DNA of 64,000 nt from Actinomycetales bacterium (GTDB lineage: Bacteria; Actinomycetota; Actinomycetes; S36-B12), in assembly GCA_018970765.1 (NCBI GenBank), contig JAGWVT010000004.1, forward strand, positions 1-64,000. The letters are read 5' to 3'. The first letter of the stretch is position 1; each line of letters starts with the position of its first letter. This document shows, one piece after another, positions 12,684-29,988 of this stretch. The position numbers and the translations under genes are program-made. Below the pieces are notes generated by a model. It worked only from the letters and a program-made list of their open reading frames with translations. It did not search any database and was not told the DNA's origin.

Positions 12684-15600
12684 GTGCGCGCGGTCTTGCG
12701 CTTGCGAATCTCGACCGTCACTTCTTCACTGACAGCGATGACCTGGCCCTTGCGCACGACGACGATGCGGTATTGGTACACGGACCCCGCTGGTACGGCG
12801 CTCTTGACGCGGAATCGAAAGCGTCCCTTCGCATTCGTTCGCGTCTTGTCCACGGTGGTCCAGACGCCGTCGATTAGGCGTTGCCGTTCGACGCGGACCC
12901 CCTTGCTATCCGCCTTCGGTCGAACCTTGCCGCGGAAGATCAACCGGCTACCTGCCTTGGGCGTTGTCGTGGGCCCTATACGCAGTGTCACCCGCAGCGC
13001 GCTTGCGCCGGCGGTGTCGCCTTCGGGTTGCGCGGCTGTGCTGTCACCGGACGTCGCACCACCAACACTGTTGCTCTGCGGCGCCCCAACGCCGGTTGCA
13101 CCGTCGATACTCGTCACGTATGCCGACTTCAACCCAAGGGCAGTCCGGAACTGTTCGCCGGTCAACGCACGAGTGGTCCCGTCACTCAAAGTGGCGCGAA
13201 CCTCGCCCACCGCTCCGGAGGTGAGTCGCTTGGTCACCTCGACCTTCCACACCGCCGGTGCTTGGAAGGCTTTCGCCATTTGCGCCTGACTTGCCGTGAC
13301 CGTCCAAGAGCGGTGCGGATTGTCTGCATGCAGTGACGAGGGGTCGGGCACGCTCACCAGGTAGGGCAGGTCACCACCCCAGACCTCTTTGACCGAGTTC
13401 GTCGCACCGCCCGATGATGAGGAGTAGAAGGCACTGATGGGCTCGCCGTTGTACAGCACGGCAAGGCCCGTGGTGGGTGATGCGGCAGTTGCGTCCACGG
13501 CTTCCACCCATTTGCCGCCCTTGGGGCCGGACTGCTTGGCGTAGCCGGTGAAGGTCTGGTCGATGTATGGACCGGTGCCGTCATCGACATGGCAGTCACA
13601 GGCCTTGCGCACACCACTCTTAGCGATCTTGGCTAGCGCGTAGGTTCGCGCTGCGATGGCCTGCGTCTGCAGCGCAGCAGCCGGCCAAGAGCTGGTCACC
13701 TCGGAGATTCCGTAGAGGTACTCATCATGCAAGCGGACCACGTTGACCACGTTCAAGCGCACTCCACCACTGGTGGTCACAGCGGAGACTTCCATCGACC
13801 CATAGCGGTACCGATGCCCAGGTGAATCGAAGGTGCCTTGGCCGCTGATCAGATTCAGCATCGTCGTGCCTCCGGCCGCACCACCGGGATTGCGCGTACC
13901 GGCCCAGCGCACGCTGACATTGGGGGCAGAGCCCAGGTCGGTGGTCTGGCCCTGCGCGATGCGCTGGACGGCCACCGATGCACCTGAGACGCCGAAGGTG
14001 AAGACATCCTGCGGACCACCCACGACCACATTGCCGCCGACCGTGACTTCAATGGCACCCCCGTCACCGGCGATAGCTTCACTGCGCATCTGTGCGTTAG
14101 CGATCTGATAGCGGACGTTGACTCGCACGTCTGCTTCATCCGGCACCGGTGAAACGGTTGTTCCCGTGTAGTAATAGGTGAGGATGCTGCTGGCGTCCCG
14201 GCCCTCTTTGGCCATGGCGTACGCCCCCCACTGCGATAGGCCAATGCCATGCCCGTAGCCACTACCAACGAGCGTGAACGCTTCCGGTGGGCCACAGGGA
14301 TCCTGCGGAGAACCTGCAGCGGGTGTGATGACACCGCTGCCTGTCCAGGGGTACATCGCATCGCCGTTGGCATCACCGGTGAGCGTGAAGGTGTACGTAC
14401 CCGGTGGCACCGGAGCACCATTGCCGTCGCGCTTATCCCAGCTGATCGTCAAGGGGCCAGCAGCATCTTGGCGCCCACTGATGGTCCGCACCACGGACCC
14501 GCATCTCGATGCGATGGCAAGGTTCCAGGAGATCGGCGCCGTACTGCGGGTGGTGACGGTGAGCGGGTCTGCGGAACCCCATGGCACCGGCCCGCTGACC
14601 GCCGGGTCATAAACCGTTGCGCCCATCATCGACGTCGCCAGTGCACGAACGGTGGGCAACTGGGCCTCGAGGAATTGACCCGGGCACTTGGTGGCACCGA
14701 TGTCCCTATGGCCACCGACCACAAGTGCAGTCGCCTGCGTACCGGGGGCGTACTTACTGGTGCCTGAACCGGAGTCCGAGACGAGGATCTGCGTACCATT
14801 GGGATCGCGATGGTTGATGGCAAGTTTCCAGGCAAGCAGCGATGCGATCGAGCTCGTCATCGCGGACATCTGCTCCGGCGGTGGATTGACCTTTTCAAAG
14901 TTGCCGATCGCTGAGATCGCAAAGGTCTCGTTGTTGAAGCCGGCAGTGTGTGCTCCGACGACGGCCTGGTCCATGCCGCCGGCGCGACCCTCATAAAGAC
15001 GCCCGTAGCGATCGACGAGGAAGTTGTACGCCATATCCGAGTAGCGCAGCCCCTTGATGTACCACCCGTACAGATTGCGAACCTGCTGCGCCGCCTCCTC
15101 TGGGGTGTACTCAGACTTCGACGTGGTGTGGTGCACGAACGCGGCCTTGATGGTGGGTGAGTATCGGGGCGCATCCACCCGCAGTGTTTCGTCCGCTCCC
15201 CACTGGTCTCGCGTGATGATTGCGGGAGCAGGCGCAGTCACAGTGCCGGCCCGAGCCAGCGCACCGCTGCCAGCCGCCTGTTCATCGACGCTAACCTGCG
15301 TGTCTGCCAACTGCGCATCCGCCTGGGTCACCGGGTTGTCCAAGAGCATCACCTGCGGATTCACCGGCTCTTCACCCTCCGGCGCATCGATGCGCACCTG
15401 AACGCCGTCAGCGGCATCGACCAGAAGCGGATCGGTGCCGTAGCGCGCCCCCTCAGCCTCCGGTGAATCGGGATCCGGCCCGTGCTCGGTGACCCGGAGC
15501 GGGTACCAGGCGCCCCAGTCATCGTCCTCGCGCACGCGCACCAGTACTCGCGTACTCGGGTCCAACGGGGCATCCGACGTCACACCCACCAGTCCAAACT

Positions 15601-16060
15601 CGCCAGTGTTCAGCGGGGCCGTCGCGACGGCCGGCGCGACCGGGTCATCCGTCAGGTCTGCCGACACTGTGCTGGGACCTTGCAGCGGGGCCAGCCCTAG
15701 CGGCGTGACGAGATCTCCTGAGCCACCGTGCTCGTGAGTGAGGTCTTCCCAGGACGCCATGGCCACGGCGGATTCGCGAACCGCAACGGGGTCGATGCCG
15801 GTCAGTGGCAGCACGACAAGTGTGGGGTCAATGGGGGCATTGCGTGGCTGCTTGGGCATCACATCGGGGGTGACTACCGGCATGGCCAGGCCCGTCACCA
15901 CCACCACAGGAGCCAGCAGCAGCGGCACAAGCGGGCGTACCCGTCGGCGCAGGCCGCAGACGGACGCCACGGCATGACCCAGCAACCCTTGAGCCTTCGG
16001 CTTTAGGGCGTTCACCAAGCCCGCGGCGCTCGTGGCGCCTTGGGCAGACTTCTGGCACAT
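12680..16060 (-). CDS. Secreted PGRP/amidase_2-type N-acetylmuramoyl-L-alanine amidase fused to SpoIID/LytB-like domain
   Basis: PGRP domain (ITRDQWGADE...AFVHHTT...GGHRDIGATKCPGQFLEAQL), FlgD-like Ig segment (ISWDKRDGNGAPVPPGTYTFTLTG), SpoIID region (GSGYGHGIGLSQWGAYAMAKEG...YLYGISEVTSSWPAAALQTQAIAARTYAL). Track start 16144; ATG at 16060 preferred. Confidence 0.88.
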   Translation of the reverse strand: MCQKSAQGATSAAGLVNALKPKAQGLLGHAVASVCGLRRRVRPLVPLLLAPVVVVTGLAMPVVTPDVMPKQPRNAPIDPTLVVLPLTGIDPVAVRESAVAMASWEDLTHEHGGSGDLVTPLGLAPLQGPSTVSADLTDDPVAPAVATAPLNTGEFGLVGVTSDAPLDPSTRVLVRVREDDDWGAWYPLRVTEHGPDPDSPEAEGARYGTDPLLVDAADGVQVRIDAPEGEEPVNPQVMLLDNPVTQADAQLADTQVSVDEQAAGSGALARAGTVTAPAPAIITRDQWGADETLRVDAPRYSPTIKAAFVHHTTSKSEYTPEEAAQQVRNLYGWYIKGLRYSDMAYNFLVDRYGRLYEGRAGGMDQAVVGAHTAGFNNETFAISAIGNFEKVNPPPEQMSAMTSSIASLLAWKLAINHRDPNGTQILVSDSGSGTSKYAPGTQATALVVGGHRDIGATKCPGQFLEAQLPTVRALATSMMGATVYDPAVSGPVPWGSADPLTVTTRSTAPISWNLAIASRCGSVVRTISGRQDAAGPLTISWDKRDGNGAPVPPGTYTFTLTGDANGDAMYPWTGSGVITPAAGSPQDPCGPPEAFTLVGSGYGHGIGLSQWGAYAMAKEGRDASSILTYYYTGTTVSPVPDEADVRVNVRYQIANAQMRSEAIAGDGGAIEVTVGGNVVVGGPQDVFTFGVSGASVAVQRIAQGQTTDLGSAPNVSVRWAGTRNPGGAAGGTTMLNLISGQGTFDSPGHRYRYGSMEVSAVTTSGGVRLNVVNVVRLHDEYLYGISEVTSSWPAAALQTQAIAARTYALAKIAKSGVRKACDCHVDDGTGPYIDQTFTGYAKQSGPKGGKWVEAVDATAASPTTGLAVLYNGEPISAFYSSSSGGATNSVKEVWGGDLPYLVSVPDPSSLHADNPHRSWTVTASQAQMAKAFQAPAVWKVEVTKRLTSGAVGEVRATLSDGTTRALTGEQFRTALGLKSAYVTSIDGATGVGAPQSNSVGGATSGDSTAAQPEGDTAGASALRVTLRIGPTTTPKAGSRLIFRGKVRPKADSKGVRVERQRLIDGVWTTVDKTRTNAKGRFRFRVKSAVPAGSVYQYRIVVVRKGQVIAVSEEVTVEIRKRKTART

Positions 16061-16303
16061 GGCGGGATCTCCGATTGATGTCAGTCCTACGGTGACATAT
16101 GACGCGCGTCGCACCGTGTTTCCCACGCCTACCGCCTGTAACATTTTTCACACCCGCGTCGGCAGCATGGAACGCGGCACCCGGCACTTTCGTCTAACTG
16201 ACACGACTCCGGGGTTACGTAAGCCAAGGGCTGGCTGTCGCGCGGTTTACGCTGCAGTGGCTGATCCGCCTGCGCTGATGTACCGCTGACTGAAGGAGAA
16301 CCG

Positions 16304-17698
16304 ATGGGTTCCTGGCGATGGACCAGGATCTTGGCTGCGATTTTGGCTGGCGCGGTGCTCCTGCTTGCGGCCATCGGCGGGTTCGTATCCCTGACGATGA
16401 ATCAGATGCAGGGGAACATCACCGCGCTGGATGTCTCTGAGCAGATCGGGAGCCCGACCGCATCGGCACCTGCCGTAGTCGACGAAGCAGGCAGTTATGA
16501 ACCCTTCACGGTGCTGCTGATGGGCTCGGACACCCGACAGGGCAAGGAGAACCGCGGGTACGGCAAGGCCAATGAAATCGGCGGAGAGCGATCCGACACC
16601 ACAATTTTGCTGCACGTCAGCGCGGATCGATCCCATGCGGTCGCGGTGAGCATTCCGCGTGACACCCTGATCACGCTGCCGACCTGCAAGAGAGACGGCA
16701 AACAGGTTGGTGGTTATCAGGGACGATTCAACGAGGCGATCGAACTCGCGGGGCCGGGCTGCACACTCAAGGCTGTCCAGGAGATGACCGGCCTGCCCAT
16801 TGAACACTTCATGGTGGTGGACTTCGGCGGATTCAAGCGCATTGTGGATTCCATCGGTGGCGTGGAGATCTGCGTGGCCGAGGACGTCAATGACTCACAG
16901 AGCGGCCTTCGGTTGACGAAGGGTACGCACGTCGTCAAGGGCGAAGAGGCACTTGCCTTCGTGCGTGCTCGCAAGACCCTGGGCGATGGTTCGGATACCT
17001 CGCGCATTCGGCGCCAGCAGGCATTCCTGTCGTCGACGATTCGTCAGGTGCTCTCCAGCGACACACTGCTCAACCCAGTCAAACTCGTCAACGTGCTCAA
17101 TGCCGCAACTGAATCACTGACAGCGGATCCATTCCTTGCTGACCTACAGAACTTGCAGGATCTCGCCCTGAGCATGCGGCAACTCAAGCCCAAAGACATC
17201 ACCTTCACCACCATGCCGTGGTACCCATCCGGTGACGGGGCAACGGTGCTGCAGAACAAGAAGCGCGCCAAAGCGCTCTGGCAAGCCATTGCCGATGACA
17301 CCGCGTGGCCGCCCAAGGGCGAAAGCGACCAGCCGGTCCTGCGGGTTGAGCCCAACACGATTCGCGTCGACGTGCTGAATGGGACGAGTACCAAGGGCCT
17401 GGCCAAGAAGGTGGCCAAGCAACTTCGCAAAGAGGGCTATCGCGTCATGGAGGTCGGCAATACCAAGACCCCCGCCGCCCAGACGACCGTCATCTACGAC
17501 CCTGATTGGGACAACTCCGCAAAGACCCTCATCTACGCCACCACCGCAGAGGCGAAGTCCGAGCCCGGTCACGGCCAGCGGATGACGCTGGTTATCGGAG
17601 ACGACTTCACCGCAGTGCAACCAGTGAAGATCAGCGATCAGTTGAAGGACAAGACGGCGAACCTGAACACGGCCGACGAGTCCTTCTGCGCTGCCTAG
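16304..17698 (+). CDS. LCP (LytR-CpsA-Psr) family protein with LytR_C domain
   Basis: LMGSDTRQGKENRGYGKANEIGGERSDTTILLHVSADRSHAVAVSIPRDTLITLP...LAFVRARKTLGDGSDTSRIRRQQAFL; C-terminal IRVDVLNGTSTKGLAKKVAKQLRKEGYRV. Confidence 0.95.
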   Translation: MGSWRWTRILAAILAGAVLLLAAIGGFVSLTMNQMQGNITALDVSEQIGSPTASAPAVVDEAGSYEPFTVLLMGSDTRQGKENRGYGKANEIGGERSDTTILLHVSADRSHAVAVSIPRDTLITLPTCKRDGKQVGGYQGRFNEAIELAGPGCTLKAVQEMTGLPIEHFMVVDFGGFKRIVDSIGGVEICVAEDVNDSQSGLRLTKGTHVVKGEEALAFVRARKTLGDGSDTSRIRRQQAFLSSTIRQVLSSDTLLNPVKLVNVLNAATESLTADPFLADLQNLQDLALSMRQLKPKDITFTTMPWYPSGDGATVLQNKKRAKALWQAIADDTAWPPKGESDQPVLRVEPNTIRVDVLNGTSTKGLAKKVAKQLRKEGYRVMEVGNTKTPAAQTTVIYDPDWDNSAKTLIYATTAEAKSEPGHGQRMTLVIGDDFTAVQPVKISDQLKDKTANLNTADESFCAA

Positions 17699-17717: not shown

Positions 17718-18584
17718 TCAAATCACCGGCGGTCGTCCGGCCTTGGTCATCCGCCAAACCGTGCGCCAACGCATCGCCCGACGCCCCGTCGGACGCACGC
17801 GTATTCCTTCACCCAGGCCAGCAAACCAGGCACGTAGTGCGGCCGGCTTGCGCACGCGCAGCACTGTGAGCGTGATCCAACTGCCGACATAGCAGGGCTG
17901 CAAGACCATCGGCAGGTTACGTCGGGCCAGCCAGACCCGATTGCGCGCATTCATACGCCAGAACTCGGCATGCCGCGTGGGATTGATGACAGGGTGCCAG
18001 ACCGGCACATCCCCGGCGTACCACGGTGTTGCCGGCGAATCCCACACTCGCCACACCAGGTCGATGCCCTCGTGGGCGTAGAAGAACTCATCGGGCCAGC
18101 CACCGGCGGCATCGAAGACATCCCGCCGAATCAAGGTTGCCCCTTCCCACAGTGAGGTAGCCGGGCCGGGCTGCGCCGGATCTCCCGCACGAAGCCGCGG
18201 CACCCAACGTCCGGGAGCGGGCTTACCGGTCGGGTCGACCACGCGCGGCTGAATCAACGCGCGATCCCCCGTCATCCGATCGGCTAGCGCACGCAATGTC
18301 GTCTGTGTCGGCAGCTGCGCGTCGTCATCGAGAAAGAACAGCAGCGGAGTGTCGAGCAGGGCCGCACCTGCGTTGCGCCCGGCCGGAATGCCGAGGTTTT
18401 CCGCCAATCCAAGTGTGCGCACTGATTCGGGGAACCCGACCGGGTCCCAGCCATTGCCGACCACGACAACCGACGTCGAGACATCAACCTGCGCAAGGAC
18501 CGATTGGACTGCCTGCTGCAGTTCGGCCGGTCGGCGACCCATGGTGAGCACAACCACGCCGATCCTTGGTACCTCGACAGTCAC
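17718..18584 (-). CDS. Glycosyltransferase family 2
   Basis: VTVEVPRIGVVVLTMGRRPAELQQAVQSVLAQ...GNLGIPAGRNAGAAL-type motif, FFLDDDAQL. GTG start at 18584 preferred over the track start 18671. Confidence 0.88.
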   Translation of the reverse strand: MTVEVPRIGVVVLTMGRRPAELQQAVQSVLAQVDVSTSVVVVGNGWDPVGFPESVRTLGLAENLGIPAGRNAGAALLDTPLLFFLDDDAQLPTQTTLRALADRMTGDRALIQPRVVDPTGKPAPGRWVPRLRAGDPAQPGPATSLWEGATLIRRDVFDAAGGWPDEFFYAHEGIDLVWRVWDSPATPWYAGDVPVWHPVINPTRHAEFWRMNARNRVWLARRNLPMVLQPCYVGSWITLTVLRVRKPAALRAWFAGLGEGIRVRPTGRRAMRWRTVWRMTKAGRPPVI

Positions 18585-18594
18585 GCGCGGCGCC

Positions 18595-19416
18595 TCACGT
18601 TCGACGGAGTTTGCTCGATGCAAGGATCGCGGCAAGGTGCCCCAGCACAGTGACCACCCCGAGGGCCGCAAGGGCGATCAGCAGCACACGGGTGGCCAAC
18701 AGATCGCCGAGGAATGCATCGATAACCGCGGCCACCCCAGCCAACAACGTCAACTCCACAGAGTGGTACGCGCGGTAGAACGGGAAGAACCGAACCAGGG
18801 ACCGCACTTTACGAAGCAGACCACCACGTGGTTGGGCAATGCTCACTGTCTGACTGGTGTCGGCCAACAGGGGCATGGCGTTGTAAGCACGTGCGACATG
18901 GACGGTGTCGTTCAGCACCTTGTTCCACAACACCAGCACGGCCAGCAGAGCGCCCAGGAACGGCCAGCCTGAGGCGAGCCATCCGGCCTCGGGGAAGCCA
19001 GCCGCACGCATGCCCAGGGCAATCGGGATCAGACCCTCGGCCGCATAGTGACCGACGCGGTCCAGGAAGACCCCGGCCGGCGAGGAGGTCTGGCGCCAGC
19101 GGGCAACCTCACCGTCACAGCAATCCCAGAGCATCTGCAACTGCCCCAGGAAGACCGCAAGCAGGCCGCCGGGTAGTCCCGGAATCAACAGGGCGAGAGC
19201 GGCGCCGATGCCGGTGCCGATCATCAGGAGCGTGACCTGGTTAGCGCTAGCACCAATGCGCAGCAGCACCAGGGTCAGGTAGGGCGAGATCGCCCGCTGG
19301 TAGGCGTCAGCAACCCAGTGCTCGGAGTTGCGTCGGCCCCGGATGCTAGGCGGCTGTCCAACGGCGCGGATCTCGGCAACCGTCGGGCGAGTCGGTCGAT
19401 CAACTGCCTCGCTCAT
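18595..19416 (-). CDS. CDP-alcohol phosphatidyltransferase family protein (variant active site)
   Basis: DCCDGEVARWRQTSSPAGVFLDRVGHYAAEG matches D-x2-DG-x2-AR-x8-G-x3-D-x3-[D] except that the last Asp is His; multiple TM segments. Confidence 0.85.
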   Translation of the reverse strand: MSEAVDRPTRPTVAEIRAVGQPPSIRGRRNSEHWVADAYQRAISPYLTLVLLRIGASANQVTLLMIGTGIGAALALLIPGLPGGLLAVFLGQLQMLWDCCDGEVARWRQTSSPAGVFLDRVGHYAAEGLIPIALGMRAAGFPEAGWLASGWPFLGALLAVLVLWNKVLNDTVHVARAYNAMPLLADTSQTVSIAQPRGGLLRKVRSLVRFFPFYRAYHSVELTLLAGVAAVIDAFLGDLLATRVLLIALAALGVVTVLGHLAAILASSKLRRT

Positions 19417-19428
19417 GGCCTCATGCTG

Positions 19429-21234
19429 TCATTCGCCGTGGGTCCGCGTGGCGGACGTGTTCTGCCGCAGCCATTGCACGGAGGCAAGGACCATGCCGAC
19501 ACCCACCAGGATCACCAGGCCAACACTGAACACAGTGGTCATGAGCGGCGAGGACTGGCCTTGACCGAGACTGAGTGCGACCACAGTTGTGACCAGCAGT
19601 AGCAGACTGCGAATCTCCCAACCACCTAAGGACCAGGTCAACCAGCGTGGCATGGCAGTGCCACCGATAGCGCGATAGAGCACGTCGTAGTGGTGGAAGG
19701 CGACGACGGCGGCCCAGGCAAAACCCAGCACAATGAGCGACGGAAAGAACGCGAGTGACACGATCGCGACAAGGCCAAGTTCCCAGAGCCGTAGCAGCAC
19801 TGGGATCAACCAACCTGCGGGTGCCGGCCAGCAGCGAGATCCGATAGGCACGATCCGACCGACCACCCAGGCCAATGGACCGTCATCGCTTTGACGTTGC
19901 AGCAGGAGCGCTGACTCCGCAGGAGATGGCCCACGCCAGGTGATGGTGCGCAGCAGGCGACCACTCAGCACATAGGCACCGGCGATGATTCCGGCGATGA
20001 GCAGTACTCGTAAGGCCCAGGCTTCACCGGCGACGATGGCAACGACACTGATGATGAGCCACCGTTCTCCGATGGGTAGGTGCAGTGCGCGCTTGGCCCA
20101 TCTGACCGCATCGCGGCGGTTGGCCCGGGTAGACGCCTCCATGGCTCGGCCAATGTTTGGCAGCCCAGTTGACCAGGTGGCCGTGTCAGCGCCGTCGCCT
20201 GACTGCAGCACATCGCGGACTTCTAGGCGCAGTTCCCGCGCCCATTGAACGCGGGAAAAGTCGTAGTCGCTAACATGGCGAACCGTCTGCAGGACGACGA
20301 GAACAATTGCCAGCGGCCAGACGTTTTCGGCACCCCCGACCCAGGCACCCACGGCAAGGCCGGCGTAGGCCGCGTACTCCTTGACACGATCGGTCGAGGC
20401 ATCCAGCCAGGCACCCAGTGCACTGAAGCGGCGCGTGGCGCGGGCCACCTCGCCATCGACGCAATCGACGATCAGGCTCAACTGCAGCAGCAGGGCACCA
20501 AGGACCCTCATCGGCAGCGACCCTTGCGCGAAGGCGAGGGCAGCCAGGAGTCCGATCGCGAACGAGGCCAAGGTGATGCTGTTCGGACTCCACCCTAGGC
20601 GCAGGGCGAGTGCCGTGATGGGCTTTGACAGGCGTCGCACAATAAAGGTGGAGTAGAAGCCGTCATCGATGCGATTGGCCTGCAGGCGAGCAATGCGCTC
20701 CGGTGGAATTCCGTCGACAACTGCCTGAGCCTGCTCACGATCCGGTGGCGCAAGGAACCACGGCACGTCGACGATGTCTACGGCACGCACCTTTCGCCCT
20801 GATCGTGTTGCCGCCACGACAACCAGCGGTAACCCGCGCTGAGTACCGCTACCGAGATCCCCCGCATCGAGGGCATCGGCAATGCGATGGAGCCCGGGTA
20901 CCAAGGCCGATGTGTCGGTAGCAGCAATGCGCAGTGCGCCAACGCTGGTGTGGTCGGGCGCGGTCACCAGATGGAATGCACTACCGGCACTGACTGCGAC
21001 ATGATGGCGCACACGCACATCGGCCGAACTGCCGCCAGGAGCTACCAGCAGTGTCGTGGCCGCAAGTGGGTCATCCAAGATCGGTGCGAGGGCGGCACGT
21101 GGCACCACCAGGTCGACGTCGACGATGGCAACGGGCCCACCGGCCGAACTCAGCAGGTCAGCCAGTTGCCGCAGTTCGCGACCGTTCGCCTGCTCTCCAA
21201 GCCGAACGACCTGCACGTCCGTGTTCGTCATCAT
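19429..21234 (-). CDS. CDP-alcohol phosphatidyltransferase with degenerate N-terminal nucleotidyltransferase-like region and C-terminal multi-TM (DUF5941-like) domain
   Basis: 601 aa; DCVDGEVARATRRFSALGAWLDASTDRVKEY, a complete CDP-AP motif; N-terminal ~180 aa lacks the LAAGxGxRL motif. Confidence 0.82.
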   Translation of the reverse strand: MMTNTDVQVVRLGEQANGRELRQLADLLSSAGGPVAIVDVDLVVPRAALAPILDDPLAATTLLVAPGGSSADVRVRHHVAVSAGSAFHLVTAPDHTSVGALRIAATDTSALVPGLHRIADALDAGDLGSGTQRGLPLVVVAATRSGRKVRAVDIVDVPWFLAPPDREQAQAVVDGIPPERIARLQANRIDDGFYSTFIVRRLSKPITALALRLGWSPNSITLASFAIGLLAALAFAQGSLPMRVLGALLLQLSLIVDCVDGEVARATRRFSALGAWLDASTDRVKEYAAYAGLAVGAWVGGAENVWPLAIVLVVLQTVRHVSDYDFSRVQWARELRLEVRDVLQSGDGADTATWSTGLPNIGRAMEASTRANRRDAVRWAKRALHLPIGERWLIISVVAIVAGEAWALRVLLIAGIIAGAYVLSGRLLRTITWRGPSPAESALLLQRQSDDGPLAWVVGRIVPIGSRCWPAPAGWLIPVLLRLWELGLVAIVSLAFFPSLIVLGFAWAAVVAFHHYDVLYRAIGGTAMPRWLTWSLGGWEIRSLLLLVTTVVALSLGQGQSSPLMTTVFSVGLVILVGVGMVLASVQWLRQNTSATRTHGE

Positions 21235-22388
21235 CAGGAAGGCGCCGAGCGCCGGAACTTGGCGCGTAGGTCGTTGCGCAACTGGCGCAGGAGTTGACGG
21301 GCCAACCCTCGACTCGACGTCTGCTGAGCTGACTCATTGATCACCGCGACCACCGCCTCCAATGCCGCCTGCAGGGGGATCAGATCAGGGGTCTGCTCCG
21401 TTCCTTGTGATGGCAGTCGCCGGGCAAGTTGGTCGACCGGCCCCGCAACGCGCGCACCCGATTGGCGCAGCTGCTCGACGATCTGGTTGCCGTGTTCGGC
21501 GGCAGCAGCTAAGGCCCAGTCTGGTGTGGCCATACGCGCTTCCGTTGCCGCAGGCTGACGCTGCTCCACCATGGCCAAGGCCATGCCCCGGCGAACCAGA
21601 CGCACGTAGTCGGGCCACTGAAGATTTCGCTTGACGCGCCGATTGACGTCGAGGAGGAGCTCGGCCTCTGCGGCGGTCATTGAGCGGTTCGAGGTGAGGT
21701 CCATGCGACTGGTCAGCATCTGATCTGGAATATCGAGGAGCTGCGCAAATGCGACGAAGAGCGCGGCACGGTCGACGTTTTCCAGAACCAGCACCGTGAC
21801 TTGCTCCGGGCCTGCCGCATCCGCCCACCGTTGCACGACGGCACCGTGATCGTGCCGGCGCCAGAACGTGGGTGATTTGCGCGAGCTTCCGCGAACCGCA
21901 AAGACGTCCTCTAGCCAGGGTTCGTATTCGGTCTCTAACCCGTACTTGAGGTATTGCTGCCAGGAACTCGGCAGGAGACTGCCAAGGTTGCGCAGCGTCA
22001 CGACGACATGAACGCGCGAGCCACCCAGTCGTTGCACGACACGTTGCGCGGTTTCGGCGTCGGCCTCGCAGAAGAACTCGCTGCTGATCACTGTCCGACC
22101 GCGATGTCCAGCAACTTCCTTGGCCACGGCGTCTAGTTGATGTGGTGGCACCACTGATCCACCGCGCTGGTTCCATCCCCAGGTGCGGCCAAGAGCGGCG
22201 AGGGCGGCTCGATGCTGCGCCTGAAGTCGGCCCGGGTAGAGCACCCCGGCAGCACGCAATTCCTCGCGCGCATCGGAAAGGGCCGCCTGAATGGCCGTGG
22301 TGCCGGTCTTATGCACCCCGATGTGCAGCAGCACTGCATCCGGTGCCAGAGCCGGCAGTGAACCCAGGCCCAGGTCAGCGGCGGGCAT
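21234..22388 (-). CDS. Sulfotransferase-like protein
   Basis: Near the N-terminus VLLHIGVHKTGTTAIQAALSDAREELRAAGVLYPG (PAPS 5'-phosphosulfate binding-loop-like HKTGTT). ATGA overlap with the next gene. Confidence 0.72.
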   Translation of the reverse strand: MPAADLGLGSLPALAPDAVLLHIGVHKTGTTAIQAALSDAREELRAAGVLYPGRLQAQHRAALAALGRTWGWNQRGGSVVPPHQLDAVAKEVAGHRGRTVISSEFFCEADAETAQRVVQRLGGSRVHVVVTLRNLGSLLPSSWQQYLKYGLETEYEPWLEDVFAVRGSSRKSPTFWRRHDHGAVVQRWADAAGPEQVTVLVLENVDRAALFVAFAQLLDIPDQMLTSRMDLTSNRSMTAAEAELLLDVNRRVKRNLQWPDYVRLVRRGMALAMVEQRQPAATEARMATPDWALAAAAEHGNQIVEQLRQSGARVAGPVDQLARRLPSQGTEQTPDLIPLQAALEAVVAVINESAQQTSSRGLARQLLRQLRNDLRAKFRRSAPS

Positions 22389-22390
22389 GT

Positions 22391-23206
22391 TTAGTCCTCA
22401 TCGTCCTCAAACTCCTCGTAGTCCCGCCTCGTGGAGCGTCGTGTTGACTTGCGCCGTGCCTTGCGCAGCAACTCCAGCGCCTGGTCGGCGGTGCAGGCCT
22501 GCACAGTGCCATCACCCACGAACAGGGCCCGATCACAAACCTCGCGCAGACGCACCAGATCATCCGAAACGATCATGAACGCTATGCCCTCGTCGCGAAG
22601 CCGAGCGATCTGCTCCCAGCAGGCCTGCACGGCAGCAGGCTCGCCGGCGGCAAGCACCTGATCGATGGCATAGATCTGCGCCTGCGTCGCCATGCCGATT
22701 GACCATGCCAGCCGCTGACGAATCGGCGTGGGAGTTGGGCCGAGATGACGATCCAAGCCACCACGCACGCCGGCCTGGTCGACGATCGACTCGAATGATG
22801 CCGTCACCTGCTGCGGGCTCATGCCGAGCAGCCCACCAAGGACATAGATGTTCTGGCGAATGGTCATGCGTCGATTGAGTGTTCGGGCAATGCTGATCAG
22901 GGGTACCACTGTCGAACGTTGGGTGACTCGGCCCTGATCGGGAAGTAGCGTGCCCGCCGCGAGGCGCAGCAGTTCTTCTCGGCCACCATCCTTCACACCA
23001 ATGACCGCCACTACTTCGCCGGCATCCAGCCAGGCGTTCACATCACGGAGCATCCAACTCTGGCTTCGCGCTACCTCACCGGCGAGCCGACGCAGTCGGT
23101 GGCGCCGTCCGCTGCCACCACGACGCTGCTCCTTGGGCATCGAGATTCCGACACCCTCAAAGGTGATTGCATGCGCGAGATCGCTCTGGATTCGTTGACG
23201 TGCCAT
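22391..23206 (-). CDS. Wzt/TagH-like ABC transporter ATP-binding subunit with degenerate catalytic motifs
   Basis: Overall ABC layout (WMLRDVNAWLDAGEVVAVIG...MTIRQNIYVLGGLLGM...IYAIDQVLAAGE...FMIVSDDLVRLREVCDRALFVGDG), but Walker A = GVKDGGREEL, Walker B = IYAIDQ, switch His = Asp, signature = PTPIRQRL. Confidence 0.85.
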   Translation of the reverse strand: MARQRIQSDLAHAITFEGVGISMPKEQRRGGSGRRHRLRRLAGEVARSQSWMLRDVNAWLDAGEVVAVIGVKDGGREELLRLAAGTLLPDQGRVTQRSTVVPLISIARTLNRRMTIRQNIYVLGGLLGMSPQQVTASFESIVDQAGVRGGLDRHLGPTPTPIRQRLAWSIGMATQAQIYAIDQVLAAGEPAAVQACWEQIARLRDEGIAFMIVSDDLVRLREVCDRALFVGDGTVQACTADQALELLRKARRKSTRRSTRRDYEEFEDDED

Positions 23207-24015
23207 TAGGCCTCCTTCAGGATCCGGCCTTCGAGCCGGTAGAAGGTGATGGCGCCAATCCCGCTGATCACGAGGCCGGAGACCAACGAGATGAGGAAGA
23301 GTCGAAGTTCCTCGGTCTCATTGGGCCAAAAACCAATGCGGTACAGACCAAAGATGCCCACCAGCGGGTTGAGGGCGGCCAGTGCTTGCACGCGCTCGGG
23401 AATATTGGCAATCGAGTAAAGCACCGGCGACAGGTAGAAGGCCGTGCGCAGCAGAATTCGAATCATCCGCTCAAGATCGGGAAAGACCGATGCCACCGAG
23501 GAAACGAGCAGGCCCACTCCGTACATAAACAGGAACTGCAGAGCGATACCTACCGGAAAGAGAATGAAGAGCGGCCCAGGTGGCGTCCCTGTCACCAGCA
23601 TGGCAACCACGATCACCGGTAGCGACATCAAAAACTCGACCATTGAGGCGAGGATCACGCGCAGCACCCATAGACGCGTCGGCAGCAGGCTCATCCGAAG
23701 GCCGATGGTGTCCTTGCGGAAGACCTTGGTGGCGGCGGTGATGCCCTTGGTGAACCACCACCAGGGCAGGATCGCCAATGCGAGGAAGAGGAAGTACGGC
23801 TGCTGACCCAACTGACGAGCGCCAAGCAGGACCGAGAAGACAAACCACAGGACCATCGACATGCCCAGGGGCTCTAACAGTGACCACAGATAGCCCAACC
23901 GGAAGTTCGAGTACTTACGCTGCAGGTCCCGCAACACGAGCATCCGCAGCACCTGACGGTGCTCCCACACCGAGCGCACGCCGTTACCATAGGCCAATGC
24001 GCGATCGTGGGGCAT
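23206..24015 (-). CDS. Wzm/TagG-like polysaccharide ABC transporter permease
   Basis: MPHDRALAYGNGVRSVWEHRQVLRMLVLRDLQRKYSNFRLGYLWSLLEPLGMSMVLWFVFSVLLG, ABC2-type permease with six TM-like stretches. Track start 24153; ATG at 24015 preferred. Confidence 0.88.
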   Translation of the reverse strand: MPHDRALAYGNGVRSVWEHRQVLRMLVLRDLQRKYSNFRLGYLWSLLEPLGMSMVLWFVFSVLLGARQLGQQPYFLFLALAILPWWWFTKGITAATKVFRKDTIGLRMSLLPTRLWVLRVILASMVEFLMSLPVIVVAMLVTGTPPGPLFILFPVGIALQFLFMYGVGLLVSSVASVFPDLERMIRILLRTAFYLSPVLYSIANIPERVQALAALNPLVGIFGLYRIGFWPNETEELRLFLISLVSGLVISGIGAITFYRLEGRILKEA

Positions 24016-25285
24016 GCTCAGCATGGCGGACACGATGAGCCGCGCCGCGGCCAGCACGCGCTCGCTCGTGAGGCGCGCAGCTCGTTCGGCAGCGCGACGC
24101 ATTCGGGATTTCGTCGAGCCCGAACCCGTCGGCATTGATCTTGCCGCCGTCACCGAGGCGGATATCGCCCTGCACTTCGCCGACGGTCCGCATAAGTTCT
24201 ACCAACTCATGCCATGGCTCGCCGTCTTGCGGCAACGACCGGAATTACGCGTCATCATCGTGGCCCGCCAACCTGAGTCCTACGAGCCGTTGACGAAACT
24301 CACCGACGTCCCAATCGCGCTGGTCCCCAAGTTCGACGCGCTGATGGCGCTTTACGATCGCGCCAATTTCCGTGCCGTGCTGTACGTCAACAACTCGTAC
24401 ACCAACTTCCAGTCCTTGGCTTTCCAGCAGGCAGTGCACATCCATGTCAACCACGGTGAGAGCGACAAGATTTGCATGGTCAGCAACCAGGCCAAGGCCT
24501 ATGACCGCGTCTTCGTGGCCGGACAGGCTGCAGTCGATCGCCATGCCGCAGCGCTAGCTTGGTTCGACACCACGCACCTAACCCGGGTGGGTCGGCCACA
24601 GTTGGATCTCGTCGTCGACAATCCACTGACCCAATGGGACGGACCCACCATCACCTATGCACCGACCTGGGAAGGTGAGGACGAAGCCAACAACTACACC
24701 TCGATCGATCACTATGGCCTCGCCATCATCGAGGCAGCACTGGCCCAACCAGGCGCCCGCGTCATCTATAAGCCGCATCCGCGAATCCCGGAGTCAGACA
24801 CCGCGGCTGTGCGGTCGGCGCACCAAGCGATCGTGGCCGCGCTCAAGGGCGCGTCGAGTGAAGCCGGGCATCGCGTCTGCCTGAATGAGGACATCCTCGG
24901 CGTGATCCGCGGGACCGACCTGTTCATCGGTGACGTGTCGAGTGTGACGTTGGATCACCTCTACCTGCGGCCCCAGGCACCGATCATGCTCACCGATCGT
25001 CGGTCAGATCGCGAGCGGCTGCGGGCCGATACGCCAGTTGCCTCGGCAGCCTCCGTCATTGACGCAAACACGCTTAGTTCACTGGCGCCCGACATGGGCC
25101 GTCTCCTGACCCAGGACCCGTTAGCGGCAGCTCGCCGCAGCGTGCGGGACTACTACTTCGACGGCCTTGGACCGGGCGAGAGTACACAGCGCTTCTGGAC
25201 TGCACTCGAAGCGGCTATGAGCGAACATGATCGCGCCGTAGCCAACCTCAAGCGAGTGCGCATCACAGCCGCCGAGGTCGCATAG
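24014..25285 (+). CDS. CDP-glycerol glycerophosphotransferase (TagF/TagB)-like protein
   Basis: HIHVNHGESDK (WHG-like His), VIYKPHPRIPES, LFIGDVSSVTLDHLYLRPQAPIMLTDR. Alternative ATG starts at 24023 and 24035. Confidence 0.82.
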   Translation: MLSMADTMSRAAASTRSLVRRAARSAARRIRDFVEPEPVGIDLAAVTEADIALHFADGPHKFYQLMPWLAVLRQRPELRVIIVARQPESYEPLTKLTDVPIALVPKFDALMALYDRANFRAVLYVNNSYTNFQSLAFQQAVHIHVNHGESDKICMVSNQAKAYDRVFVAGQAAVDRHAAALAWFDTTHLTRVGRPQLDLVVDNPLTQWDGPTITYAPTWEGEDEANNYTSIDHYGLAIIEAALAQPGARVIYKPHPRIPESDTAAVRSAHQAIVAALKGASSEAGHRVCLNEDILGVIRGTDLFIGDVSSVTLDHLYLRPQAPIMLTDRRSDRERLRADTPVASAASVIDANTLSSLAPDMGRLLTQDPLAAARRSVRDYYFDGLGPGESTQRFWTALEAAMSEHDRAVANLKRVRITAAEVA

Positions 25286-25287
25286 GC

Positions 25288-25980
25288 ATGCAGGCAGTCA
25301 TTCTCGCGGCCGGTATGGGGACGCGCCTTGGTCGGCCATGGCCTAAGCCGCTCACCCGCCTAGATGACGGGCGCACGATCATGCAACAGCAGTTGGAGAA
25401 TTTGCAGCAGGCCTTTGGTGATGACCTCCACGTCCTCACGGTTGTTGGGTTCAAACTCGAACTCATCCTCGAGGCGTTCCCGGACGTCGCCTACGCCTAT
25501 AACGAGTCCTACGACCAGACGAACACGAACCGGAGCCTGCTCAAGGCACTGCGCCTGACATCCCCCGGCGGAGTGCTGTGGATGAACGGCGACGTCGTCT
25601 TTGATCCGGGTGTGCTGGAGCGGGCCAAGGAGATGATGGCCCAGGAGCGGTCCTTCATCTGCGTGAACACCGCAGCAGTTGGTGACGAGGAAGTGAAGTA
25701 CACCGTCGATGACGCCGGTCACGTGGCGCTGTTGTCCAAGTCCGTCACCGCGCCACTTGGGGAAGCCGTCGGCATCAACTACGTCTCAGCCGGCGATCGA
25801 GCGAGCCTGATCGCAGGCCTTGCCGCATGCGGTGACCAGGACTACTTCGAACGCGGAATCGAACTTGCCATCGAACGCGATGGCATGCAGGTCTTTCCCT
25901 TGGACATCACGGAGTACTTCGCCGTCGAGGTGGATTTCGAGGAAGATCTCAGCAGGGCCAATGCGCACCTTGGGCGCTAG
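25288..25980 (+). CDS. Sugar/alcohol-phosphate nucleotidyltransferase (LicC/IPCT-like)
   Basis: MQAVILAAGMGTRLGRPWPKPLTRLDDGRTIMQQQLENL...WMNGDVVFD. Confidence 0.85.
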   Translation: MQAVILAAGMGTRLGRPWPKPLTRLDDGRTIMQQQLENLQQAFGDDLHVLTVVGFKLELILEAFPDVAYAYNESYDQTNTNRSLLKALRLTSPGGVLWMNGDVVFDPGVLERAKEMMAQERSFICVNTAAVGDEEVKYTVDDAGHVALLSKSVTAPLGEAVGINYVSAGDRASLIAGLAACGDQDYFERGIELAIERDGMQVFPLDITEYFAVEVDFEEDLSRANAHLGR

Positions 25981-27137
25981 CGCCAAACTTCCGCGAGCAA
26001 TCGCTCCCAGCGATCCAATGTCACTTCGAGCTTTCGGTCTTCGACGGATCGTCGCGCCGCATCACCGAGTCCATTGCGCAGCTGCGTATCGCGCAGCACG
26101 ACATCAAGTGCTTCAGCGAGCCGAACCGGATCACCGGCTCGTACCAGCACTCCATTGACATCGGGTTTCACGAGGTCCCGCACACCCGCCGAGCAGTCCG
26201 TCGCAACGCAGGCAAGCCCCGTAGCCATCGCTTCCACCAATGCCAGCGGTGAACCTTCACTCAACGACGGCAGTACATGAACAGCCGCTGCCTGCAGCGC
26301 CGCCTCTGGGTCGGCAACGGGGTCCATCACGCGCACACGGGTCAGCTCCGCTACTCGCCCGGCCACTTGCTCGGCCTGCGGGCCAGTGCCGTAGATGATC
26401 AGCTCCCACTCAGGGTGCTTGGTAGCGATACGCGACCAGGCGTCTAACAACACCAAGGGTCCCTTTTCCACAGCAAGGCGACCAAGGAACACGACCTTTT
26501 GTGAATTACCTGCTGCCTGCACGGCTGGCCAATGAGCAATGGGGTTGGTCATCGTGATGGTGTGTGGCAGCCCTGCTGCGATAAAGGCCCGACGGTCTTC
26601 GTCGCAAAGCGCGGTCACCACATCGACCTCGGCGTACGAGCGCTGCAGGCGAATCAGATCACGTCCGGTGGCAGCGGCCCGGTAGGAGGCGTGGTACTGG
26701 CCGATGGTGCGCCAGGCACGTGGATCGAACTGCCGCTTGGGAACCTCGCGCAGGTGCTCCATTGCCCACACCTGTGCGGTGACAACGATACCCGGGGGTC
26801 CATCGGTGAGCAGCTCGCCGAGTTTCGCCACTGCGTCATCACGCATCCGTTGCCGGTCAGCCTGCCTAGCGCGAAACGCTCGACCGAGCCGCGTGCGCAT
26901 ACCCGACCCGGGAATCGGCGGTGGCAGTGGCTGATCCAGCAGCGTCACCTGGCGATAGGACGCTGCACCCTCATGGGATTGACCCAGGAAGCCATCCTGG
27001 ACTGGGACGATGCCGACTGCCGTCACATCATGACCGCGTTCGGCCAGTCCCTGCGCCAGCGTGTCGACCACTCGCTGCGCGCCACCTAACTCCTGAATGT
27101 TGTTCGCCATGAACACCACGCGACGGCGCTGCGACAT
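25977..27137 (-). CDS. Glycosyltransferase family 4 (GT-B)
   Basis: MSQRRRVVFMANNIQELGGAQRVVDTLAQGLAERGHDV...VVFLGRLAVEKGPLVLLDAW...LPSLSEGSPLALVEAMATGLACVATD. Track start 27356 is over-extended. Confidence 0.88.
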   Translation of the reverse strand: MSQRRRVVFMANNIQELGGAQRVVDTLAQGLAERGHDVTAVGIVPVQDGFLGQSHEGAASYRQVTLLDQPLPPPIPGSGMRTRLGRAFRARQADRQRMRDDAVAKLGELLTDGPPGIVVTAQVWAMEHLREVPKRQFDPRAWRTIGQYHASYRAAATGRDLIRLQRSYAEVDVVTALCDEDRRAFIAAGLPHTITMTNPIAHWPAVQAAGNSQKVVFLGRLAVEKGPLVLLDAWSRIATKHPEWELIIYGTGPQAEQVAGRVAELTRVRVMDPVADPEAALQAAAVHVLPSLSEGSPLALVEAMATGLACVATDCSAGVRDLVKPDVNGVLVRAGDPVRLAEALDVVLRDTQLRNGLGDAARRSVEDRKLEVTLDRWERLLAEVWR

Positions 27138-27150
27138 CAGGTGCTCGATC

Positions 27151-29988
27151 TCATGGGAGAGGCCGCTGCAGGGCCGCGAGCGCAGTCCTGGCAATAGTGG
27201 CGTCGATTGGCCCGGCGAGCATGGCAAGTGACCTGCGCCCTGCGCGCAATTCGTCGGCCCACGCAGCGCTGCGTGCTGGAAGCCACTGACGCACCAGCTC
27301 GACGAGTGCTTCAGGCGACCGGGCAATAGGAGCGGCTTGCGCGAGGTCCCAGGCATAGCCGGGTGTGCGACTCAAGGGTTCGATGCCTGCAGGCAGGTCG
27401 GCCGGATCCACGACTACTAGCGGTCGGTCGGCAACCGCGGCGTCGACGATCCAGTTCGAGGCATCTGTGATGAACAGGTCGCAGCCGGCAATCAGGCCTG
27501 CAACATCGTCGTAGGCACCGAGGTCCAGTGCGGTGTGGCGCAATGCTGGCGGCACCCGTACCGGCCGGCCGTCGGTGCGTCGAATGAGCACGCTGGCCTC
27601 ACCCGCCACCGCCTCGGCAAGCAGTTCCACTCCGATGCCGCCGTCCGGTAAGTCGGGGTGACTTGGAACCACGAGGATGACTGGACGTCCGTCAGGAATC
27701 ACAAATTCGGGTGGTAGCCCGGTGCCTGTTCGCGCGGCAACCTGCTGGGCGAACGGCGAACCTGGGCCAACGCGAGAGCCGGTGAAGTTCAGCGCATCCG
27801 CCAGGTCATGTTCGGCCTGCCCGGATGGCACCAGCAGTGCATCCCATCGACGCACCGAGGCTGGGGCCGGGTCACGTACCGCCTTCGGTGCGCAGACCCA
27901 GGACGGATCATCGCGACCGACGCGCAGCACGGGTGCACCCGTCCACGCTTGCAGGTAGCGCTGACCGCGACCCTTGCGCACACTCAGTGCGATCCCGTGA
28001 TCATCAACCCACCAGCGGGATCGCGCCATCACCCAGTGGTAGGCCAAGGAACGTCGGTCCACGAGTTTCGCCCAGGCCGGGAAGCGCTCCGGCTCACCAC
28101 TATGGATCCAAACTTGACGCAGACTTGGTTCCTGCTGGTGCCAGGCCTCACTGAGCGCCCGGGGTTGTCCGACGAATCGACGACCGTCGCCGGCCGCGAG
28201 CACCACAGTTCCAGCGGTGGGCAGCAATGCGCCCACACGCTGCAGGGCCCACTTCGTGGCCCCCCGGAGCACACCGGGTCCAAGGCGCAGACGTAACCAG
28301 AGTGCGCCGAGCCTTGCCTTCCGCTGACGGATCGCCTGCCAGGTGATTGTGCCTGCGCCTCCCGGCGAAACTCGGATCGCATCAGGGGGCTCCGGCGGCA
28401 ACTGCGGCCAGCGATTGCGTGGAATCACGAATTGAGGTGTCAGCAGGATCGGTGCATGCACTGGTTCGGCAATCTCATACTCCGCAGCGCCCGAAGATTC
28501 CGGCGGTCGAAAGCGCAGCGAGAGAGCGATCGACCCAGTCGCACTCAGCGGCAGCACGGTCCCATCGGTTGCCGCCACAGGTGCACGCCCATGCCAGCGG
28601 TAGGCAGGACCATCCGCAGTCACTGGAGCGTCTACACCTGCTACCCGTTCCCAGGTCAGCGGCACCTGCAGCATGGCGCGATTGGCTGGGCCAAGGAACA
28701 CCAAACGTGCCGAGACCACGCGGTCCAGGTCAGCAAAGGCGTCGACCGTGCCGCCGGTGATCTGCAGGTTGACACCGTCGAAAGCCAACGCACTGACCAA
28801 GTGGCACCAGGGTCGCTGGATCGGGGCGATCGCCGCGACATTGAGCTCCGACGCATCGAGCCACCATCGCGCCGGGAAGCCGCCGAACATCGGGCCCTCG
28901 GCGAGGTGCTCGCAGGCCCACACATCACCCTGATCATCCGTTCGGATTGGCCCATCAATGGCACCAGACCAAGCGAGGTACCGCATGGCACTTCGCACAC
29001 CCTCGAGATCGCCGAGCAGGAGGTGGTAGACGGCAATACGCAATGGGGCCTGCACGTCTTCGACACTTGTTAGATCCATGTCGCTGACGTAGTCGGCCAA
29101 CTCGCGCATGATCGCCCGGGACTGCAACTCGTCTGCTTCGATCAACGACGCCAGGTGTAGTGACAGGTCGTGGCGAAGGAACTTCGCGTCCTTCACTCGA
29201 CGTAAGTCGGGTCGGTCCAGTGAGCGAAGGCGGGCATCGATGAGTCGATTCACCGCGATGCGGTTGGCAGCATTGCGAGCTTCGGTTCGACGCTGGGTGA
29301 TGGATGGCGCATCGCTGAGGCGTTCCACGTACCAGCGATACACACTCTGCTCAAGCACGACGATGCGCTGCGCGAGCGCATAGGCCTCCATGGTGAAGAG
29401 TTGGTCTTCGTAGAGCACGCCTTCCGGAAAGCGCAGCCCGTGGCGCTGAAGGAATTCCCGGCGGTAGATCTTGTTGACGCTGATTGTGTCGGCGATGAGT
29501 TCCGGACGTTCCATGATCGTGTCGAGAACCGCAGGCTCATGAAGGTCGGCATGCCACCTGCGCACCTTGCCGGTTCGCACGTCGACTCGGTCTGCAACAC
29601 CGCAGCCAAGGTCAGCGTCCGCCTCCTCCACCGCCCAGAGCAGGTTCTTGGCAGCATGCCGTTCAAAGACATCATCGGAGTCGCAGAACATCACCCAGGT
29701 ACCGCGAGCCTCTTCGATTCCACGGTTGCGCGGCGCACTGCACCCACCTGAGTTCTCCTGCAGGCATACGTACCTGATGCGGGAGTCCTTGGCCATTGCA
29801 GCGGCAACGACCGATGCAGTGTCATCCGTCGAGGCGTCGTCCACGACGATAATCTCGAGATTCCGCAATGTCTGAGCCGCCAAAGAACGCAGGGCGCGCG
29901 GCAGGCGCTTGGCGTCGTTGTAAGAGATCAGCACAACCGAAACGTCGGGGTGCTGGTCCTGCTCGCTTTGGCTCGCCGCACCGACCAT
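27151..29988 (-). CDS. Bidomain protein: GT2 glycosyltransferase fused to a degenerate CDP-glycerol glycerophosphotransferase-like domain
   Basis: 945 aa; N-term DVSVVLISYNDAKRLPRALRSLAAQTLRNLEIIVVDDASTDDT; C-term YLQAWTGAPVLRVGRD...GLIAGCDLFITDASNWIVDAAVADRPLVVVDP. Confidence 0.82.
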   Translation of the reverse strand: MVGAASQSEQDQHPDVSVVLISYNDAKRLPRALRSLAAQTLRNLEIIVVDDASTDDTASVVAAAMAKDSRIRYVCLQENSGGCSAPRNRGIEEARGTWVMFCDSDDVFERHAAKNLLWAVEEADADLGCGVADRVDVRTGKVRRWHADLHEPAVLDTIMERPELIADTISVNKIYRREFLQRHGLRFPEGVLYEDQLFTMEAYALAQRIVVLEQSVYRWYVERLSDAPSITQRRTEARNAANRIAVNRLIDARLRSLDRPDLRRVKDAKFLRHDLSLHLASLIEADELQSRAIMRELADYVSDMDLTSVEDVQAPLRIAVYHLLLGDLEGVRSAMRYLAWSGAIDGPIRTDDQGDVWACEHLAEGPMFGGFPARWWLDASELNVAAIAPIQRPWCHLVSALAFDGVNLQITGGTVDAFADLDRVVSARLVFLGPANRAMLQVPLTWERVAGVDAPVTADGPAYRWHGRAPVAATDGTVLPLSATGSIALSLRFRPPESSGAAEYEIAEPVHAPILLTPQFVIPRNRWPQLPPEPPDAIRVSPGGAGTITWQAIRQRKARLGALWLRLRLGPGVLRGATKWALQRVGALLPTAGTVVLAAGDGRRFVGQPRALSEAWHQQEPSLRQVWIHSGEPERFPAWAKLVDRRSLAYHWVMARSRWWVDDHGIALSVRKGRGQRYLQAWTGAPVLRVGRDDPSWVCAPKAVRDPAPASVRRWDALLVPSGQAEHDLADALNFTGSRVGPGSPFAQQVAARTGTGLPPEFVIPDGRPVILVVPSHPDLPDGGIGVELLAEAVAGEASVLIRRTDGRPVRVPPALRHTALDLGAYDDVAGLIAGCDLFITDASNWIVDAAVADRPLVVVDPADLPAGIEPLSRTPGYAWDLAQAAPIARSPEALVELVRQWLPARSAAWADELRAGRRSLAMLAGPIDATIARTALAALQRPLP

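Follow-up and report, generated by a model that had tools for sequence, protein, structure and literature searches.

Within the window, i.e., the whole stretch of 64,000 nucleotides analysed here, the gene at 22391..23206 (minus strand) encodes a putatively non-catalytic ABC nucleotide-binding-domain (NBD) protein of 271 amino acids, termed pseudo-Wzt in the following, which adjoins an intact Wzm-like permease. The analysis supports the view, raised by the first-pass annotation, that pseudo-Wzt is kept by selection as a non-hydrolysing subunit and is not decaying: the state is found family-wide, the gene is under purifying selection and adjoins its permease, the fold is predicted to be intact and the catalytic motifs were probably lost in one old event. 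Where the ATPase is called dead, this means that the residues known for ATP binding and hydrolysis are absent, as read from sequence.

ABC exporters are defined by ATP-coupled transport, and degenerate sites are known among them which, according to PMC7756269, are normally paired with a live site. A lineage whose sole encoded NBD has lost all motifs and has long been kept with a permease whose polymer-handling residues are retained represents a natural experiment on NBD roles beyond hydrolysis and on the question whether a Wzm channel needs ATP at all, and intact sister loci of the same order allow for matched comparisons. The options for an exporter with a motif-less ATPase are another power source, a borrowed engine or a new job, and the matter bears on the chemistry of the cell surface in aquatic actinobacteria that are widespread and, for the most part, uncultured.

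The pseudo-Wzt protein and its partner permease

The gene was assigned from its open reading frame, Wzt homology, a motif table, AlphaFold and Foldseek, and both the list of open reading frames and the sequence itself document an uninterrupted frame of 271 codons, as first reported. Among solved structures, phmmer identified Aquifex aeolicus Wzt as the closest relative (6m96, E 3e-27), followed by TarH (E 3e-20) and TagH; the relation to Wzt is thus strong, while the Pfam ABC_tran profile (PF00005) scores 17.2 bits, under its gathering score of 25. The phmmer alignment to 6m96 set the motif register, and together with the motif table it located four degenerate motifs on the minus strand. Walker A (residues 70-78; 22973..22999) has changed from GPNGAGKST to GVKDGGREE, whereby the P-loop Lys is replaced by Arg and the Ser/Thr pair by two Glu residues, and the signature motif (residues 158-162; 22721..22735) has changed from YSSGM to TPTPI. 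Walker B (IYAIDQ, residues 178-183; 22658..22675) retains its Asp, the catalytic Glu being replaced by Gln (IDE to IDQ), and in the switch region (VSD, residues 213-215; 22562..22570) SHD has become SDD with Asp in place of His. The loss of all catalytic motifs as read in the first-pass annotation was hence confirmed; the signature was rightly reported as lost, but its slot had been given as PTPIRQRL, which begins one residue late. The Glu-to-Gln exchange found in Walker B is, according to PMC6379404, the mutation giving a hydrolysis-dead A. aeolicus mutant.

An AlphaFold model of pseudo-Wzt, calculated from a 51-sequence alignment, reached a pLDDT of 92.4 and a pTM of 0.87, and its best Foldseek matches in the PDB were the A. 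aeolicus Wzt structures (E 4.5e-23, TM-score 0.78); the corresponding f4 protein (L147) was modelled with a pLDDT of 92.1. As the alignments contained intact relatives, these models indicate that the sequences are compatible with an NBD fold but do not prove it. In the window protein, residues 34-41 (RRHRLRRL; 23084..23107, minus strand) are modelled as a helix inserted after the first and before the second long strand and constitute a very basic gate-helix segment, which was located by predicted secondary structure and by the column table; in the f4 model the segment is of low confidence and not helical. According to the column table no other basic stretch of pseudo-Wzt is as conserved as this segment in family f1, the family of the window, and all 35 aligned f1 orthologues carry R28, R29, G31 and R40. 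At the C-terminus (22391-22450, minus strand), a basic stretch is followed by an acidic tail; such tails, e.g., RRKSTRRSTRRDYEEFEDDED and KRLLQEEDDDDDDTTFM, occur in many pseudo-Wzt proteins of both pseudo groups and are much weaker in intact Wzt relatives.

The partner gene (23206..24024, minus strand) encodes a Wzm/TarG-like ABC-2 permease, as identified by PF01061 (E 1.9e-13), by similarity to A. aeolicus Wzm (E 2e-19) and by its conserved columns, and it matches TarG as well as A. aeolicus Wzm. Its start was taken as the ATG at 24024, from which its residues are numbered; a start at 24015 is also possible. The adjacency of the two genes stated in the first-pass annotation was corroborated in detail, and they are very probably translationally coupled, since the permease stop TAA overlaps the pseudo-Wzt ATG by one base (TAATG) and an AAGGAGG precedes this ATG by four bases. 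The window permease keeps the equivalents of the A. aeolicus LG-loop, Trp27, Pro32 and Asp167, and Leu23/Gly24, Trp27, Pro32 and Asp167 are kept across 42 f1 and nine f3/f4 permeases with the exception of one Leu-to-Phe exchange (f3/f4) and one unreadable position (f1). The A. aeolicus report (PMC6379404) describes the LG-loop and Trp27 as thought to push the polymer, Pro32 as a kink and Asp167 as a contact, the basic gate helix of Wzt as thought to recruit the polymer, and the nucleotide-free complex as already forming a continuous transmembrane channel. Judged from the conserved columns, it is the nucleotide site that is lost in the pseudo clades and the substrate side that is retained.

Distribution, selection and origin of the motif-less state

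For comparison, the ATPase adjoining each permease was gathered from families f1, f3, f4, f6 and f7 and from 40 loci of other families in the class, f1, f3 and f4 being Nanopelagicales families; the motif table counts distinct sequences (f1, n=42; f3/f4, n=9; others with the same permease, n=48). The P-loop Lys and the signature Gly are kept in none of the 51 pseudo-Wzt sequences but in all 48 ATPases encoded next to this permease by actinobacteria of other families, and as a consequence chance is excluded as the cause of the motif loss. The intact ATPases retain all five key residues and pseudo-Wzt at most two, with no intermediates among these 51 and 48 sequences. The catalytic Glu is retained in eight of 42 f1 and none of nine f3/f4 sequences (8/51 overall), the switch His in one f1 sequence and again in none of f3/f4 (1/51 overall), and Walker A of f3/f4 is still more altered than that of f1 (DPEGNRSAI, DSSTHRRQT). 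The orthologue search thereby revealed the motif loss to be common to the whole family and not to one strain, while the exact replacement residues vary; no intact orthologue was found in f1, and all intact ones belong to different families within the order and class.

An orthologue profile search identified pseudo-Wzt in 54 of 85 f1 genomes, distributed over 10 of 14 f1 genera, and an order-wide permease search found the permease in 52 f1 genomes and in members of f3, f4, f6 and f7. About 52 f1 genomes have both genes, which are adjacent wherever loci were examined; in the f1 genera g7, g8, g12 and g14 neither of them was found. The named orthologue records are mostly Candidatus Nanopelagicales or Actinomycetota MAGs, and isolate names point to lakes, estuaries and inland seas. 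Two records titled Bifidobacterium breve MAG (L116, CAMDKJ010000004.1; L120, CAMBQX010000091.1) hold a Nanopelagicales pseudo-Wzt with 43-47% identity, hence their titles look mislabelled. A viral origin of pseudo-Wzt was rejected, as no relative was found among viral contigs.

The dN/dS comparison across orthologues proposed at the outset gave 0.03-0.15 for pseudo-Wzt in pairs with dS < 0.65, documenting strong purifying selection, and within the same limit the permease value was below that of pseudo-Wzt in nearly all pairs; values of up to ~0.77 from distant pairs were set aside, as these pairs join distant genera within a GC-rich set, in which dS is saturated and unreliable. Open frames were found in nearly all copies, so that neither a broken frame nor relaxed selection marks pseudo-Wzt as a pseudogene.

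The ancestor of the pseudo-Wzt locus was probably a working exporter, since the same locus in the f7 genome G056 (L102) has the same gene order and an intact Wzt in the pseudo-Wzt slot; the f6 loci (L139-L145) likewise possess intact Wzt. Matched controls with canonical Wzt in the same order are thus available in L101 (G048), L102 (G056) and L139-L145 (f6). In a Wzm tree, built without the ATPase, f1, f3 and f4 form one clade (support 98/97), equivalent to one change of state. The pseudo-Wzt proteins share the exchange of D/E118 for Gln (34 of 35 f1 and nine of nine f3/f4), and the permeases of both pseudo clades share the exchange of Y59 (TM1) for Leu or Met (or Ile) and of R116 for other residues, both positions being invariant elsewhere. 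We take R116 to lie in the loop near the coupling helix, as generally known for ABC-2 exporters, and its exchange would fit an altered NBD contact. The permease stems of both pseudo clades are long; when f1 is removed from the Wzm tree, the f3/f4 permeases shift beside a long intact branch, and AU tests did not reject f1 with f6/f7 (p 0.20) or f3/f4 with f30 (p 0.16). A single ancient loss of the catalytic motifs is on these grounds favoured without being firm, and two losses are possible. In an RpoB species tree the exclusive grouping of f1, f3 and f4 had a p-AU of 0.03, with f5 adjoining f1; this says little on the locus, as the permease is absent from the one f5 genome tested. The f3 permease L149 (G057) is nested inside f4 (97/86), which suggests that the locus was transferred between families f4 and f3.

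The probable wall-polymer locus and its relation to known exporters

On the minus strand, pseudo-Wzt is followed after two bases by a sulfotransferase-like gene (21234..22388), which was recognised from an N-terminal HKTGTT motif by our own reading and has no Pfam match; it was dropped as a marker of the pseudo state, as it is absent from several pseudo loci. Further on, the same strand carries a CDP-alcohol phosphatidyltransferase with a DUF5941 domain (19429..21234; Pfam), syntenic in most f1 loci, f4 and f7, a second CDP-alcohol phosphatidyltransferase (18595..19416; Pfam) and a GT2 glycosyltransferase (17718..18671; domain search), beyond which a LytR-CpsA-Psr (LCP) wall-polymer ligase family protein is encoded on the plus strand (16304..17698; PF03816, 154.8 bits). 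On the other side of the permease, the plus strand encodes a CDP-glycerol glycerophosphotransferase-like protein (24014..25285; PF04464, E 1.9e-6), whose start is uncertain as it overlaps the divergent permease frame, and a sugar/alcohol-phosphate nucleotidyltransferase (25288..25980; PF12804, E 3e-15). The minus strand there holds a GT4 glycosyltransferase (25977..27356; domain search) and a 945-aa protein, in which a GT2 domain is fused to a TagF/TarF-like glycerophosphotransferase domain (27151..29988; PF00535 and PF04464, the latter with 74.3 bits). The genes point to a wall-polymer locus with a presumably phosphodiester-linked product. A 1154-aa protein encoded at 12680-16144 (minus strand) combines Amidase_2, FlgD Ig-like and SpoIID domains, a mix unusual for a wall enzyme.

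The core of LCP, GT2, CDP-alcohol phosphatidyltransferase and nucleotidyltransferase genes is present without the Wzm/pseudo-Wzt pair in G020 (L226), G094 (L227) and G008 (L228) and is located away from it in G016, G025 and G034. The pair is hence not essential to the core, and what it serves may be an attached branch and not the core itself.

Amongst characterised systems, the A. aeolicus Wzm-Wzt O-antigen exporter (6m96, 8dl0, 8dne) is similar in its permease family with LG-loop, Trp27, Pro32 and Asp167, in an NBD fold whose gate helix separates the first long strand from the second and in its adjacent two-gene arrangement; unlike its Wzt, pseudo-Wzt lacks the P-loop Lys, the signature, the catalytic Glu and the switch His as well as the C-terminal carbohydrate-binding domain, having a short basic/acidic tail instead. 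The wall teichoic acid exporter TarGH/TagGH (S. aureus 9cfl, TarGH 6jbh, B. subtilis TagH 7dd0) handles an anionic wall polymer, which is matched by the LCP ligase and glycerophosphotransferase-like genes near the window pair, and TarH is the second-best sequence relative of pseudo-Wzt; it is, however, an active ATPase, whereas pseudo-Wzt is without any catalytic motif. The mycobacterial galactan exporter Wzm/Wzt (RfbD/RfbE) is likewise an actinobacterial ABC-2 polymer exporter, but its NCBIfam models NF050108 and NF050109 match far under their equivalog cut-offs (65 of 400 and 43 of 380 bits). In heterodimeric ABC exporters (TM287/288, TmrAB, TAP, CFTR, Pdr5; PMC7756269), a degenerate NBD is retained for a structural role; these exporters keep one active site and lose some motifs only, whereas in the present case the only encoded NBD has lost all, and as a consequence a pseudo-Wzt homodimer would have no active site. 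In an open-access literature search of titles and abstract openings, neither a fully degenerate Wzt/TarH nor an ABC-2 exporter with both sites dead was found, which is not proof of absence. The closest counterpart by gene order is the f7 locus L102 (G056), arranged as nucleotidyltransferase, Wzm, Wzt, DUF5941, CDP-alcohol phosphatidyltransferase, GT2 and LCP, with an ATPase which is fully canonical.

Proposed mode of action and rival explanations

For the first-pass annotation, one option was that the exporter is energised differently, and this is now the leading one. The model suggested assumes an ABC-2 'type V' anionic wall glycopolymer exporter of the Wzm-Wzt/TarGH type, whose ATPase would, in some of the Nanopelagicales, long since have turned into a pseudo-enzyme. 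Here, pseudo-Wzt most likely still dimerises beneath the Wzm channel, and its very basic gate helix would serve as the docking site for the lipid-linked polymer at the mouth of the channel; ATP would not be hydrolysed and canonical ATP binding is unlikely, so that the polymer would be driven otherwise, e.g., by a push from cytoplasmic chain growth or a pull from outer-face capture by the LCP ligase. Assembly of the complex, continued carriage of polymer and the energy source are what we infer here. This model, in which a non-hydrolysing Wzt platform at the Wzm channel receives an anionic, lipid-linked wall polymer and a force other than its own ATPase moves it, is given a chance approaching but not reaching even. 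The proposition that an ABC-architecture polymer exporter operates entirely without ATP hydrolysis, with a permanently non-hydrolysing Wzt and with chain synthesis or outside capture as driving force, kept since at least two families diverged, is put forward tentatively, as possible rather than probable. In favour of the channel model are the motif counts (0/51 versus 48/48), the constant pairing with the permease, purifying selection, the kept polymer-translocation residues, the conserved gate-helix segment in f1, the intact Wzt at the same locus of G056, the continuous channel of nucleotide-free A. aeolicus WzmWzt, the wall-polymer neighbours and the lack of an intact Wzt in at least 11 genomes of >=90% completeness. 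Against it stand the long permease stems and the Y59/R116 exchanges in both pseudo clades, which could mean that transport was lost, and the presence of the core cluster without the pair in three genomes, with Wzx-like matches allowing for another exporter. A further point against this model is that, to our knowledge, no Wzm/Wzt, TarGH or KpsMT system functions in the absence of ATP hydrolysis.

The same observations make a serious rival of a non-transport role, although we consider it rather unlikely: Wzm and pseudo-Wzt would form a membrane platform that organises glycosyltransferases via the basic gate-helix segment and the acidic C-terminal tail, as a scaffold or regulator, with transport of the polymer left to a Wzx-type flippase or to another exporter. 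The changed coupling-loop Arg and the long permease stems are consistent with this, as are the basic-then-acidic tails carried by many sequences in the two pseudo groups, the survival of the core cluster without the pair in G008, G020 and G094, and the PF01943 Wzx-like matches, mostly weak, in most genomes without intact Wzt. No PF01943 match was found, however, in G100 and G046, and the tested polymer-translocation residues of the permease are kept in 51 sequences (apart from the two exceptions given above), and the permease moreover evolves slower than pseudo-Wzt; these last two features fit a working channel. Alternatively, pseudo-Wzt might pair with a live ABC ATPase from another locus, giving the exporter a degenerate and an active subunit in the manner of heterodimeric ABC exporters. 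Such pairs are common in other ABC exporters, as stated in PMC7756269, the window's genome (G000) does possess an intact Wzt on contig C191, and the partner could come from another ABC family. The first-pass annotation had likewise considered a second active Wzt and a genome search for an orphan one, but the sole intact Wzt of G000 adjoins its own permease, and a search with an intact Wzt as query across genomes of >=90% completeness detected none in at least eight f1 genomes (G003, G009, G013, G023, G025, G029, G034, G100) and at least three f4 genomes (G037, G046, G050). The next-best ABC ATPases of these 11 reached at most ~76 bits as compared to 181 for the true Wzt of G000; in G024 an intact Wzt is present as a fragment, and G021 has one that is more distant. 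A Wzt acting in trans is therefore not the general answer, and a universal intact partner Wzt was rejected. In addition, a composite site joins the P-loop of one partner with the signature of the other, and as pseudo-Wzt lacks both, a mixed dimer would be defective at its two sites. Overall, this pairing is regarded as unlikely.

Very improbable is a hidden enzyme, i.e., that pseudo-Wzt binds or hydrolyses nucleotide via new residues. Arg replaces the P-loop Lys in 27 of 35 aligned f1 sequences and a Walker-B-like Asp-Glu is seen in eight of 42, but a conserved set of replacements was not found: the f1 genera disagree at positions 71-78, in the signature and at the catalytic base, with yet other residues in f3/f4. 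Finally, strain-specific decay, sequencing error or contamination might be suspected from the fragmented assembly with its 238 contigs and 5% estimated contamination; the probability of this is negligible, as it is refuted by orthologue conservation, the same state recurring in more than 50 genomes with uninterrupted frames, purifying selection and conserved synteny.
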